This document shows, one piece after another, positions 857-64,000 of a stretch of DNA of 64,000 nt (position 1 is its first letter; each line of letters opens with the position of its first letter). The DNA comes from Axinella damicornis (Eukaryota > Porifera > Demospongiae > Axinellida > Axinellidae): assembly GCA_963931865.1 (NCBI GenBank), contig OZ007517.1, positions 8,938,038 through 9,002,037 of the forward strand, written 5' to 3'. Made by a program: the position numbers and the translations under genes. The notes below the pieces were generated by a model. It was not told the origin of the DNA and made no database searches. It saw only the letters and a list, made by a program, of their open reading frames with translations.

Positions 857-1159
857 ATGTGATAGCAGTGGTTGGTGTTACAGTCAGTATCCTCTCTCCC
901 CCAGGCCCTGCAGTCGTGTATGCCCTCACTGAGATGGTGTAGGTAGATTCTGGTCTCAGGCCAGTCAGCTCCACAGAGGTGGCTGTGACATTCACAATTC
1001 GCCCACCTTCCTGCCCTTCTTCCTCATCCCAAAATTCAACCTCATAGACTATGATGTCACCACTTTGCGTGAGATTGAGCGGAGGGTTCCAGGTGACTGG
1101 TAGCATTAGTGATGCATCGGTGACTTGCAGAGAGCTCACCAGCCCTGGAATGCTGGGAC
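857..1159 (-). CDS. Gene A FN3 exon 4 (last visible)
   Basis: The 303-bp exon encodes one FN3 domain of about 101 residues. It has the usual hallmarks: a Pro-rich start (PSIPG), the strand-B Trp in VTWNPP, a Tyr in IIVYEVEFWD, and the LTGLRPESTYTISVRAY signature near the end. The acceptor is ...TTAG at 1160 and the donor is GTGAGT at 855-856. Phase 1-1 matches the other extracellular exons. Confidence 0.8.
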
Positions 1160-62400: not shown

Positions 62401-64000
62401 GCTACCTCCAACGGACTTACAGTGACTTCTGGCAGTGCTACCCTCACAGGTTTGTAGATCACTGTTGTTCCCAAACGTAATGAGTGCAAGCCTATCCATC
62501 TAATTGCATTTTTCAACACAGTGTCTCCTGAGGGAAGCATCTCTGTATCTCCATTGAACATGGTCTTCAACAGAGGAGGCAATGTGACATTCAACTGTTC
62601 GGCTCAGGGTGGGCCTGGCAACACCTACCAGTGGCAACGGAGCGGAACTTACCTGGATAACGAAACTATGCAAACTCTAGCTATCACTCAGATTAGTGCA
62701 GCAGACGGTGGTGAATACACTTGTGTTGTCAGCAATGCAGCTGGTAATGACAGTGCCAGAACTCTACTGAATGTGTTTCCGGAGATAGTTTTAGATCCAA
62801 CGGACGTGAGTGCCAGTAATGGAACTATGCGTATGTTAATGTGTGCAGCAGAAGCCTTCCCTGAGCCTCAGTATCAGTGGATGCGTGTAAGCGGAACCTT
62901 CGGTGACAATATTGCTGGAGTTGATAGCAGCATGCTAGTGTTTAATCCAGTGATGTTTGGAGATGAGGGGGATTACTACTGCAGGGCTACCTCCAACGGG
63001 CTTACAGCGACTTCCGACAATGCTACCCTCACAGGTTTGTAGATCAATGTTGTTCCCAAAAGTAACAGCTGCAAGGCTATCCATATAGATATTTTCCAAT
63101 GCAGTGTCTCCTGAGGGCAGTGTAGCAGTGTCACCCACGATGGAGGTTTCTAGCATCAGAGGAAGTGTCACCTTCAGCTGCTCAGCGCAAGGTGGTCCTG
63201 ACAATGGATACCAGTGGCAGTACGATGGAGTGGTTCTGATGGATGAAACCAATACTACTCTGACCATTGATGATATTCGTGCTGTGAATGGAGGGAACTA
63301 TACCTGTGTAGTGAGCAATGCAGCAGACAGTGACAGTGCTACTGCTACACTGTATGTTGCACCTGCAATAGTCACTCAGCCAACTGACATTCTCACTAGA
63401 AACGGGACTGTAGTGAACTTTACCTGTGAGGCTGAAAGTTTCCCAGCCCCGACCTACCAGTGGGAGAGATACAACGAGACAATGGCTGCATTCATCACCG
63501 TGGGTAGTGATCCAGTGCTTGAGTTTTCACCAGCTGTGTTCGGAGAAGAAGGGAGTTACTACTGCAGGGCTACCTCCAACAGAGTTGCAGTGACCTCTGA
63601 TAATGCTACTCTCACAGGTTTGTAGATCACTATTTTCCATCAAATAATGAGTGCAAGCCTATCCGTATATTTTTTCAACACAGTGTCTCCTGAGGGTAGT
63701 GTCTCTGTATCTCCCTTGAACATGGTCTTCAACGGAGGAGACCATGTGACATTCAACTGTTCGGCTCAGGGTGGGCCTGGCAACACCTACCAGTGGCAAC
63801 AGAATGGAATAGACCTGGATAACGAAACTATGCAAACACTGACTGTATCTCAGATTAGTGCAACTGACGGTGGTGAATACACTTGTGTTGTCAGCAATGC
63901 AGCTGGTAATGACAGTGCCAGTACTCTACTGAATGTGTCTCCGGAGATAGTTTCAGATCCAACGGACGTGAGAGCCAATAATGGAACTGTGCGTATGTTT
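52962..64000 (+). CDS. Gene C: partial paralogue of gene B, Ig exons only
   Basis: Five phase 1-1 exons are visible: 52962-53492, 61937-62449, 62522-63034, 63105-63617 and 63684 to beyond the edge. Each encodes two Ig domains, or the start of them. They match the order of the gene B N-terminal Ig exons but run on the opposite strand, so the two are an inverted pair. No leader exon, FN3, membrane span or phosphatase lies in the window. The first and second exons are 8.4 kb apart because of repeat and retrotransposon insertions. The gene could be functional with an exon hidden in the gap, or a 5'-truncated copy. Confidence 0.7.
53528..53563. repeat. G homopolymer
   Basis: About 36 consecutive G lie just after the first gene C exon. 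Confidence 0.95.
55962..55988 (+). repeat. Short interstitial telomere-like repeat
   Basis: GTTAGGGTTAGGATTAGGGT then TAGGG: about four TTAGGG units with one variant. TTAGGG is the common animal telomere unit. It is too short to indicate a chromosome end. Confidence 0.75.
56321..56460 (-). repeat. 3' LTR of the Ty3/gypsy element
   Basis: 140 bp, TGTAGCA...TGCTACA, identical to the other LTR. It is very short for this superfamily. Confidence 0.95.
56461..56477 (-). promoter_or_regulatory. Polypurine tract
   Basis: On the minus strand TGTGGAGGGGGGAGT lies directly before the 3' LTR, with two bases between. This is the expected primer site for plus-strand DNA synthesis. Confidence 0.8.
56494..60333 (-). 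CDS. pol: Ty3/gypsy Pol polyprotein (PR-RT-RH-IN)
   Basis: The 1279-residue frame is intact. An aspartic protease active site ILIDTGAATS lies at about residues 41-50. The reverse transcriptase contains FCVDYRRVN and the catalytic YLDD at about 483-486. RNase H follows with LDTDASDTGIGAVL near 630 and an HRPGKRHGNADSLSR motif. The integrase zinc finger H..H..C..C (GHLGVEK...CPSCATRK) is near 870-910. The DDE core starts at VDILGPL and includes HSDQGKQFES. A GPF-type C-terminal module (WTGPFQVL) follows. No chromodomain is evident. The start ATG overlaps the gag stop (ATGA), in the -1 frame relative to gag. Confidence 0.95.
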   Translation of the reverse strand: MSQALEGEHQAHVSTIIPTSSVTSGKDCVLEGLVNGVPTSILIDTGAATSVLSKDLWDKAKGSGSELGDAAGRKLVSVQGKPLQLYGSACVQLQLAAETFPVEVMVAEIPTIDMIIGRDFLRNQECTIEMGKASDVLHVKSCGLKLPISKGQPSSVFPTLSVILQESVKVPPFSEMEVMGSVPAAATSKTFVVQGKPQGRNAVMVARALVLPEACSIPLRLLNPRDEEVTIPRGTAVAELENVVAEVEGVPPGDVGVAVVSDDEEAGKPTEAHRKRLWELVEQSEQCLSQGEKEQLFALLLEYHDIFATGPHDLGQTGRIQHTINTGTAQPIRQQVRRVPQFRRQEAKKLLDDMLGRGVIRPSDSPWASPVVLVPKKDGSLRFCVDYRRVNSVTRRDAYPLPRVDDTLDTLAGSKLFSTLDMLSGYWQVEVDPKDREKTAFCTPEGLFEFRVMPFGLCNAPATFQRLMDAVLAGLQWSSCLVYLDDLVIPGKTFLEHLAHLRNVFQRLREAGLKLKPSKCNLCLKKVEFLGHVVSAEGVRTDPGKTEKVATWPVPMSKRDVQQFLGLANYYRRFVKDFATVAKPLHHLTEKTAKFEWTEKAQNAFEELRRRLVTAPVLAFPDYSKPFTLDTDASDTGIGAVLSQSREDGSECVVAYASRVLTRPERQYCVTRKELLAVVTFVQHFRCYLLGREFQLRTDHGSLTWLANFKEPEGQLARWLERLQEFHFCIVHRPGKRHGNADSLSRRPCSQCGRDSHEETSTATIPVPAHSPIAVLVERSPQDLRKLQLEDGPISLLLQAVEKGEKPDADDVRQEGPEAQRLLQLWERLLADGGLLKRKYEDSGGNRSWQQLVVPHTLREEIMRELHSGALEGHLGVEKTVSKIKERFYWPGMHQEVDQWIRTCPSCATRKSAPQRNRGPLQTIKAGYPLQVVAVDILGPLMESVAGNSYILVAGDYFTKWMEAYAIPNQEAVTVARKLVDQMFCRFSPPEQLHSDQGKQFESAVLHEVCNILGMKKTRTSPYHPQCDGLVERYNRTLLDMLATTTQTHPFDWEDRLPKVCMAYNTSVHASTGYTPFFLMFGRQARMPIDLMYGMGNEKEKEVPTTQYAAATRKALEEAYRHVREKLAASHVRRKAYYDKRVHGRPFAVGDLVWLHSVVVPQGKSKKLHHPWTGPFQVLTKLSDSDYRVKKLTGNKRVLVVHFNRLKLCTPGTRFDVEVPDSVDGEDPPLSQDATPYYFGADMEPLEYDDVDEPDGPTEPRYPRRDRAQPEWYGSYIEH
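60330..61163 (-). CDS. gag: Ty3/gypsy Gag protein
   Basis: The 277-residue frame starts MAAKPPVIPELYTGEQSWDE, a capsid-like helical domain (WLRVRLTGRAGTAFRRLPEA), and ends with a zinc knuckle CWNCGGEGHLARNC (C-x2-C-x4-H-x4-C) in a basic, Arg-rich tail (RGRWRGRSSRSN). It would package the element RNA. Its stop TGA overlaps the pol ATG. Confidence 0.93.
   Translation of the reverse strand: MAAKPPVIPELYTGEQSWDEWIDHFDSVAQVCGWNAANKLKWLRVRLTGRAGTAFRRLPEATRADFDLAIAAMKSRFEPDSKKELYRTQLVTRKKKPGEGWAAFGDDLRLLADRAYPDLPEEARERFALNQYLSQLDNPQVAFSVKQTKPNTVDDAVRSTLEMESFLKPSVSAEVSPVSMGSESTEAVATVNSRAHNNAMKLIMERMDRIETELKSARQLPASEGNRAPSRGRWRGRSSRSNPGNCWNCGGEGHLARNCPTPKKPRQQQGNGEPPVP
61201..61221 (-). promoter_or_regulatory. 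Primer-binding site
   Basis: On the minus strand, TTTGGCGTAGTCGGCAGG directly follows the 5' LTR. TGG near the junction matches the CCA end of a tRNA. I cannot name the tRNA from memory. Confidence 0.65.
61222..61361 (-). repeat. 5' LTR of the Ty3/gypsy element
   Basis: 140 bp, identical to 56321-56460. Confidence 0.95.
61366..61936. other. Gene C intron, inverted copy of gene B 35.55-36.14 kb
   Basis: Shared runs include AGAACTTCCTCAGTGTGGGC and GACCAAGATTACTGAAACTG in inverted orientation. The sequence leads directly into the acceptor of the next Ig exon. No further exon is present. Confidence 0.8.
61937..62449 (+). CDS. Gene C two-Ig exon 2
   Basis: The 513-bp, phase 1-1 exon encodes VTFNCSAQGG, YQWQQNGI and DGGEYTCVVS, then RMFVCEVEAF, YQWMSASG and DEGDYYCMATSNGL. 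It is the direct paralogue of gene B 35032-35544. Confidence 0.88.
62522..63034 (+). CDS. Gene C two-Ig exon 3
   Basis: The 513-bp, phase 1-1 exon is a tandem copy of the previous one after a 72-bp intron. It encodes VTFNCSAQGG, YQWQRSGTYL and DGGEYTCVVS, then RMLMCAAEAF, YQWMRVSG and DEGDYYCRATSNGL. Confidence 0.88.
63105..63617 (+). CDS. Gene C two-Ig exon 4, mosaic
   Basis: The 513-bp, phase 1-1 exon begins as the gene B array subtype (VTFSCSAQGG, YQWQYDGV, VNFTCEAESF, YQWERYNE). After FGEEGSYYC it switches to the other subtype (RATSNRVAVTSDNATLTGL). The 70-bp intron before it also resembles the second subtype. Confidence 0.88.
63684..64000 (+). CDS. Gene C two-Ig exon 5, cut by the window edge
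   Basis: The exon starts after CAACACAG and encodes VSPEGSVSVSPLNMVFNGGD, then YQWQQNGIDL and DGGEYTCVVS, and remains open to the last base. It belongs to the same subtype as exons 2 and 3. Confidence 0.88.

Follow-up and report, generated by a model that had tools for sequence, protein, structure and literature searches.

The receptor locus

The stretch analysed here, called the window below, is 64,000 nucleotides of the sponge Axinella damicornis (contig OZ007517.1; C13:8938038-9002037 in our numbering of contigs), and it holds clustered genes for receptors with immunoglobulin (Ig) and fibronectin type III (FN3) domains. Gene B, the central one, carries a tyrosine phosphatase, gene C is a copy of it, and gene A and further paralogues lie to either side. 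The window belongs to a receptor complex that spans about 1.9 Mb of a single chromosome. The genome searched comprises 226 Mb in 120 contigs, and 100 kb was fetched on each side of the window (264 kb in total), so that window coordinates below 1 or above 64000 denote positions outside it. Exon phases in the 264 kb were assigned by automatic splice scoring, the model of gene B was built by hand, and protein tyrosine phosphatase (PTP) domains were sought among all open reading frames (ORFs) of 30 aa or more. Runs of exactly 200 N were read as scaffold gaps because their length is fixed and their places are irregular. A genome search with the Antennapedia homeodomain gave seven matches, the best 49% identical, and no Hox-type homeobox was evident, as would be expected of a sponge.

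An earlier note, made from the letters of this DNA alone, had described a cluster of Ig/FN3 paralogues with extracellular exons almost all in phase 1-1. The cluster is real, and the phase is indeed mostly 1-1, both in the 264 kb (109 of 123 domain exons) and in the hand-built model of gene B (23 of the 27 exons that lie between the leader and the transmembrane (TM) exon).

Gene B, a giant receptor phosphatase

The features of gene B in the window are as follows.

18053..20054, minus strand: phosphatase domain D2 and stop (WPE, HCSGGCGRTG); the N-terminal part of D2 lies in exon 20346-20595
20346..22520, minus strand: phosphatase domain D1 and linker (WPD, HCSAGVGRTG)
23315..23454, minus strand: TM exon, acceptor ambiguous
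23960..27763, minus strand: single-copy FN3 exons, including the RRRR motif; the last domain is without Pfam match
28091..31815, minus strand: FN0 and a nine-copy array of 306-bp FN3 exons with a 378-bp period
31952..32590, minus strand: two single-Ig exons
32671..35544, minus strand: five double-Ig exons with a period of about 591 bp
37417..37971, minus strand: first Ig exon (Ig0)
40666..40741, minus strand: signal-peptide exon

The model joins 42 exons from the signal peptide at 40741 to the stop at 18053 into a single open frame of 3715 residues, and all 41 introns are GT-AG with consistent phases. The protein has 14 Ig domains (Ig0 being counted as two, following the double-Ig profile), 16 FN3 domains and one domain that Pfam does not match, as well as a TM segment and two phosphatase domains, whose catalytic motifs are intact. 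Among solved structures the phosphatase part matches PTPRS (675 bits) and LAR (668) best, and PTP-alpha (594), PTP-gamma (433) and CD45 (392) less well. The part from the FN3 exon FNy to the stop aligns end to end with Lar, PTPRD and PTPRS proteins; its two top protein matches are JGI proteins, 42% identical, that bear the source names 'protein tyrosine phosphatase' and 'netrin-G3 ligand'. A furin-like RRRR motif at residue 2532 is a putative cleavage site, and a furin-type motif near the membrane is a feature of LAR. To judge by its sequence, gene B is a LAR-type (R2A) receptor phosphatase. The joining of its ectodomain to such an enzyme, already proposed in the earlier note, is confirmed by the tandem PTP domains, the best match to R2A members and the intact D1 motifs.

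One junction of the model is doubtful. The acceptor used between the exon FNlast and the TM exon does not work in copy C, and the acceptor that fits both B and C is in phase 1 (a similar sequence was seen by eye in gene F, described below). FNlast itself has a phase 0 end, so that the junction may involve a different donor or a short exon that escaped notice. B and C also differ by 2 bp close to the TM exon, but this difference probably falls within an intron, and gene B was not accepted as a frameshifted gene.

Phosphatases also occur in numbers elsewhere in this genome: a search for the D1 half gave 205 matches in all, and at least 46 among those listed lie at C5:0.70-1.44 Mb, about 16 kb apart on average. 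In the one copy read there (L038), an I-set Ig domain stands directly before a PTP domain with intact signature, which is followed by a degenerate second PTP domain.

Gene C and the apparent inversion

The following features bear on gene C.

51984..52183, no strand: 200-N run, taken as a scaffold gap, where the two halves of the apparent B/C inversion meet
52962..53492, plus strand: gene C Ig0 exon
61937..64000, plus strand: the first four of seven double-Ig exons of gene C, which extends past the window

Gene C had been described as an inverted partial copy of gene B. It is partial only in being cut by the window edge: it runs on to about 79.0k with its phosphatase at 74.7-79.0k, has no internal stop from the TM exon to the stop, and differs from B there in 6 of 651 residues. 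Gene B has five double-Ig and nine array FN3 exons and gene C seven and five, and both total 31 domains. The description of C as a copy therefore stands, and that of an inversion does not stand as given, since the two copies meet at a 200-N run and their homology ends at contig ends; the inversion may be an effect of assembly.

The 40-kb contig holding gene B is bounded by two 200-N runs (11289-11488 and 51984-52183). When this contig (11489-51983) is reversed, it runs parallel to the beginning of the contig to its right, and the limits of homology coincide exactly with contig ends: 52184, the first base after the run, pairs with 38768, and 11489, the last base of the gene B contig beside the other run, pairs with 80155. 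Alignment at 80% identity or better covers 76% of one stretch and 71% of the other, and the biggest unaligned blocks are at the positions of transposon-like ORFs. One of these, on the minus strand at 13000-15375, is a 791-aa ORF with a sub-threshold match to MULE transposase, and it sits in a 5.3-kb block of the gene B contig that is absent from the C side. On the minus strand at 56494-61181, long ORFs that by eye resemble a long terminal repeat retrotransposon lie in the gene C intron between Ig0 and the Ig array.

The collinearity, the ends of the homology and the transposon-like ORFs in the unaligned blocks would be expected if B and C were two haplotypes of one gene left adjacent by the scaffolder, with the inversion and the leader apparently belonging to gene A being assembly effects and the ectodomain being strongly polymorphic within the individual; we give this account an even chance. 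A second copy of the B 5' region was not among the best 40 of 1962 candidates, nor one of the body of the neighbouring gene C2 among the best 40 of 613, and the noncoding divergence between B and C is low at the leader flank (0.4%) and in the phosphatase region (2.5%), rising to 7.1-7.8% in four of five ectodomain blocks (3.3% in the fifth). Against it, a misoriented tandem duplicate would give the same picture, and the ectodomain dS between B and C, 0.10-0.12, is about equal to that of genes D and E (0.11), which are certain paralogues on one N-free stretch. If B and C are haplotypes, the ectodomain is very divergent within one individual.

Alternatively, B and C are true paralogues, either inverted as assembled or in direct tandem on a flipped contig, whose phosphatase ends have undergone gene conversion. 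Conversion would account for the gradient of noncoding divergence, and C2, D and E are tandem paralogues on a single N-free stretch. In coding sequence, B and C give dS 0.037, dN 0.004 and omega 0.11 from the TM exon to the stop, and dS 0.104, dN 0.0475 and omega 0.46 in the single-copy FN3 exons beside the phosphatase. An inverted duplication, however, would require that two flanking pieces were lost, one in each of two gaps. We put the chance of true paralogy somewhat short of even. Because the homology stops at contig ends, and because second copies of the B 5' region and of the C2 body, which would be expected after an inverted duplication, did not appear among the best matches, such a duplication is less likely than two haplotypes or a tandem copy that was flipped or misoriented. 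A second similar phosphatase pair was seen at C13:8.485 and 8.547 Mb (L003 and L004), and its homology ends at a 200-N run in L003, like that of B and C.

Paralogues with a tyrosine tail

Genes C2, D and E all lie on the right contig; each has B-type FN3 exons, and D and E have Ig arrays. Among the ORFs of the 264 kb, PTP matches were found in B and C only, and a cytoplasmic phosphatase was not found in C2, D or E. These three genes instead end with an exon encoding a juxtamembrane (JM) module and TM segment, followed by a short tail. The 264 kb contain this JM/TM exon four times, and the copy at 120.8k is outside the gene models. The module has no Pfam match and gave 101 genome-wide matches among 133 scored candidates, with clusters on C3, C4, C7, C9, C12 and C13 among others, and it seems to be common to many receptor clusters. 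In a search beyond this genome, with limited protein lengths, none of 2917 candidates reached E <= 0.001.

In gene D the exons FNw, FNv, FNlast and JM/TM and the tail are read in one frame to the stop, and the tail has only two tyrosines, in YMEA and YECI; neither fits a strict immunoreceptor tyrosine-based inhibitory or activation motif (ITIM, ITAM). As in paired activating and inhibitory receptors, the paralogues have ectodomain exons in common but differ in their cytoplasmic ends, and we infer that the phosphatase-bearing and tyrosine-tail paralogues may signal in opposite directions. The FNw exon is nearly confined to this locus, six of its seven genome matches (genes B, C, C2, D, E and F) being here and one at C13:10.36 Mb. 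Gene F, read as two stretches (L036 and L037) with 6 kb between them outside the view, has B-type Ig and FN3 exons, followed by the exons of D1 and the beginning of D2, at which point the read stretch ends; its ectodomain is thus apparently joined to a LAR-type phosphatase as well.

Outside the window, at 90.8-104.3k and 127.8-137.0k, six modules of the order IgA-Ig-FN3-Calx-beta lie upstream of D and E, IgA being the variable Ig domain of gene A described below. Their Ig and FN3 exons are mostly in phase 1-1, and no leader was found for the six modules. D and E may be chimeric receptors that start with IgA modules.

The leader exons

The earlier note had genes A and B share a nearly identical leader exon, and we rejected this. 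The two leader exons in question, at 12000-12125 and 40664-40768 on the minus strand, show 63% protein identity over 35 residues and 80% DNA identity, and the former is separated from the Ig exons of gene A by a scaffold gap.

11289..11488, no strand: 200-N run, taken as a scaffold gap, between gene A and the leader at 12.0k
12000..12125, minus strand: signal-peptide exon that probably belongs to a C2-type gene rather than to gene A

The true near-twin of the 12.0k leader is beyond the window at 79503-79836 (99.7% over 334 bp), where it precedes gene C2 with its FN3, JM/TM and tail exons; we infer that the C2 leader is spliced to the C2 FN3 exons. The 12.0k exon is thus probably part of the other C2 copy rather than of gene A beyond the N run. 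A genome search with it gave three matches, itself included. Leader sharing no longer serves as an argument for a recognition family.

Gene A and its variable Ig domain

Gene A leaves the window at its left edge and has the following features.

1..240, minus strand: TM exon and start of the tail (hydrophobic stretch seen by eye in the ORF -233..240)
857-1152, 2184-2461, 6757-7047 and 7154-7426, minus strand: four FN3 exons (Pfam fn3)
9418-9753 and 10739-11077, minus strand: two tandem IgA exons (predicted Ig fold)

A reading of gene A as a phosphatase gene was rejected, with no PTP match among the ORFs of the 100 kb leftward, part of which reads N. Its two tandem IgA copies differ more within the exon (7.7%, 26/336) than upstream (0.5%, 1/211) or downstream (2.6%, 17/655) of it. 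The IgA exon has 85 matches in the genome, 74 of them on C13:7.73-9.62 Mb. In this 1.9-Mb region 60 exons, after merging of two split pairs and with the two of gene A included, are at least 64% identical; the other rows are 12 at 33-51% in the same region and 11 elsewhere.

Variation is concentrated in particular parts of the domain. At the three codons before the CC pair pN/pS is 2.2 against 0.79 overall (12 of 13 exons, one being missed by the pattern), at four columns in the first nine exons it is 1.45 against 0.72 overall, and the loop before the CC pair ranks second of 99 windows by pN. The search for protein relatives gave 98 among 162 candidates (54-80% identical; ENA and JGI sources), and together with the two window exons they make up 100 cores that are all distinct. 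Structure prediction (mean pLDDT 82) gives an Ig fold, whose nearest match, and the only one at E <= 0.001, is NCAM2 Ig1 with a TM-score of 0.49. On this fold, mean entropy is high in the loops BC (1.59), C-D (1.45), DE (2.46) and FG (1.78) and lower in AB (0.79), EF (1.00) and the strands (0.62-1.12), and the length of stretch 69-82 ranges between 12 and 28 residues. Most of the variation among relatives thus falls into four loops (BC, C-D, DE and FG), in a V-like manner. Also in the six modules upstream of D and E, IgA is the least conserved part, with a mean identity of 84.7% against 90.0-93.3% for the other four parts. The A-type Ig domain looks like the recognition part of these receptors, so far as its sequence and predicted fold can tell.

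Exon number and selection in the B-type genes

Neighbouring FN3 exons 2-8 of the gene B array are 99.0-99.7% identical, and the seven introns after them are identical, which bears out the very recent arrays of the earlier note. A tree of array exons joins B9 to C5 (support 0.90) and places B1 and C1 in a clade with D1 and E1 (support 1.00); because these ends group by position while B2-B8 are nearly identical, the array ends look like positional orthologues and the middle looks remade. Copies of the double-Ig exon were also seen away from the locus, in longer open frames (227-335 aa) at C12:3073355-3075176.

Pooled per gene pair, paralogue dN/dS is 0.25-0.44 in the B-type single-copy exons, 0.27-0.46 in the array FN3 exons, and 0.49-0.70 and 0.33-0.57 in the two types of double-Ig exon. 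The peaks for single exons, 1.49 for FN0 of D/E and 1.08 for a double-Ig exon of B/D, have few changes behind each. Pooled in this way, dN/dS speaks against the recognition family that the earlier note proposed, and positive selection on the B-type arrays was rejected. The B-type ectodomain shows purifying selection and copy-number change and not diversified binding surfaces; because the pooled values are 0.25-0.70 and the array exons are nearly identical, it alters mainly in exon number and length.

Purifying selection in most B-type exons is what ordinary adhesion or tissue-organising receptors would show, that is, LAR-like receptors of the synapse type elsewhere, with unstable repeat arrays and no recognition role; the R2A receptors of other animals act in synapses and axon guidance. 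The phosphatase-less paralogues, the 60 IgA exons in one region, the loop variability and the length changes argue the other way, and we give the adhesion account appreciably less than an even chance.

A model for the complex

The structure of the complex is well supported, and its function is read from that structure. The best explanation as a whole, to which we assign a probability of about 0.45, is that giant B-type receptors with phosphatase or tyrosine-tail ends, together with A-type receptors with a loop-variable Ig domain, act in cell-cell recognition. The B-type genes encode giant Ig/FN3 receptors in which arrays of 1-1-phase exons expand and contract. The A-type receptors, and perhaps chimeric ones, would read labels of the partner via the variable IgA loops. 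Because the phosphatase-bearing and tyrosine-tail paralogues have B-type exons in common, they may be engaged at the same contact and work against each other, with kinases phosphorylating the tail and the R2A phosphatase resetting it. The number of domains would set the contact distance and hence the exclusion of the phosphatase. Contact-spacing exclusion of large phosphatases such as CD45 is the model for this mechanism. The likeliest use would be cell-cell recognition, either self/non-self or microbial.

Several points weigh against this reading. The selection test on IgA is small (three codons in 12 exons and four columns in nine) and has no formal site model, and its relatives are a mixture of paralogues and probably of species. 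The borders of the segments were drawn after the entropy was seen, with the DE turn slightly wider than its DSSP line, and the overall contrast of loops and strands is weak, 12 of 111 circular shifts reaching it, as fits the conservation of the AB and EF loops. Pooled B-type paralogue dN/dS is below 1 except in one single-exon pair (1.08). In the gene D tail, YECI conforms to no more than the loose YxxI/L/V core. Two joins are candidate arrangements: A-type modules spliced into D and E, and the C2 leader spliced to the FN3 exons of C2.

The proposal of a recognition family thus keeps part of its ground: the clustered, fast-turnover Ig/FN3 genes, the LAR-type phosphatase, the tyrosine-tail paralogues and the 60 IgA exons with V-like loops speak for it, and the B-type dN/dS, the fall of leader sharing and the possible assembly origin of the inversion do not. 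Clustered receptor genes of one family are a feature of allorecognition loci, and a recognition role for the cluster is plausible but unproven. Such loci are also marked by high polymorphism between individuals, where the one assembly used here offers B and C as possible haplotypes, by positive or balancing selection on the ectodomain, where the B-type and IgA ratios are those given above, and by a genotype that decides fusion or rejection. Because the IgA loops vary and the B-type ectodomain is under purifying selection, the A-type receptors are better recognition candidates than the phosphatase gene.

As for the partner, it may be kin, another individual or a microbe, each being possible from these sequences. 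Receptors for microbes or symbionts, and not for kin, are suggested by the NLR, GPCR and SRCR families, which in the passages available are diversified in Amphimedon and tied to microbes (PMC8242945); we place this account on the unlikely side. The fullest form of the proposal is a phosphatase-based self/non-self complex in a sponge, with a V-like Ig domain in about 60 linked copies, symmetric exon shuffling with giant LAR-type ectodomains, twin ends that are either a phosphatase or its likely kind of substrate (the tyrosine tail), and phosphatase-gene haplotypes that differ in exon number with the enzyme nearly fixed. In all these particulars together we consider it unlikely.

Comparison with known systems

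The usual LAR or R2A ectodomain has 3 Ig and 8-9 FN3 domains. Gene B resembles these receptor phosphatases (PTPRF, PTPRD, PTPRS and Drosophila Lar) in its N-terminal Ig domains, FN3 row, furin-like motif, TM segment, D1 with WPD and HCSAGVGRTG and D2 with WPE, and differs from them in its about 31 ectodomain domains, its exon arrays and its tandem paralogues without phosphatase. In sponges, an R3 receptor phosphatase and multiple PTPs are known (PMC5336234, citing Ono et al. 1999); the former has FN3 domains and one PTP domain, and a cluster with phosphatase-less paralogues is not mentioned in the passages available from that source. A receptor of Geodia cydonium with Ig-like domains (cited in PMC12018476, seen in part) is likewise Ig-bearing and signals through tyrosine, but as a kinase and not as a phosphatase. 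In the literature searched, with most subscription journals outside its scope, a phosphatase-based recognition family in sponges was not found.

The sponge aggregation factor consists of secreted wreath-type proteins. The A-type modules have a sub-threshold match to Calx-beta (21.6 bits; cut-off 27), a likeness to the Calx-beta proteins of the aggregation factor, but here Ig/FN3 modules stand beside TM receptors. Passages of one source cite a link of the factor to allorecognition and report, in a grafting study of Amphimedon, no significant enrichment for aggregation-factor-mediated adhesion (PMC5450542). An established receptor locus for sponge allorecognition was not found in the literature searched, part of which consisted of passages. 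The mapped 1.9-Mb complex of variable Ig and phosphatase-bearing receptors provides defined exons for typing grafting pairs.

Further parallels are in colonial invertebrates. The Alr complex of Hydractinia is, like the present one, a cluster of Ig receptors, with 41 members (PMC11999971), and its candidate genes bear ITIM or ITAM (PMC12065747); a phosphatase linkage is not mentioned in the passages of these sources, and the allorecognition role is established there, whereas the present complex is known from its genes alone. According to passages of the latter source, the fester family and FcoR of the Botryllus fuhc locus are clustered paired Ig receptors with the core Y-x-x-I/L/V tail motif, both features being shared with the present complex, and CD45-like receptor phosphatases are among the expressed members of the pathway (PMC12065747). 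The Botryllus receptors, however, have sushi domains and ITIM or hemITAM tails, and the phosphatase is a separate protein, while here a paralogue bears it. If our reading is true, recognition coupled to a phosphatase-bearing paralogue differs from the ITIM/ITAM logic that the same passages describe for Botryllus and Hydractinia (PMC12065747).

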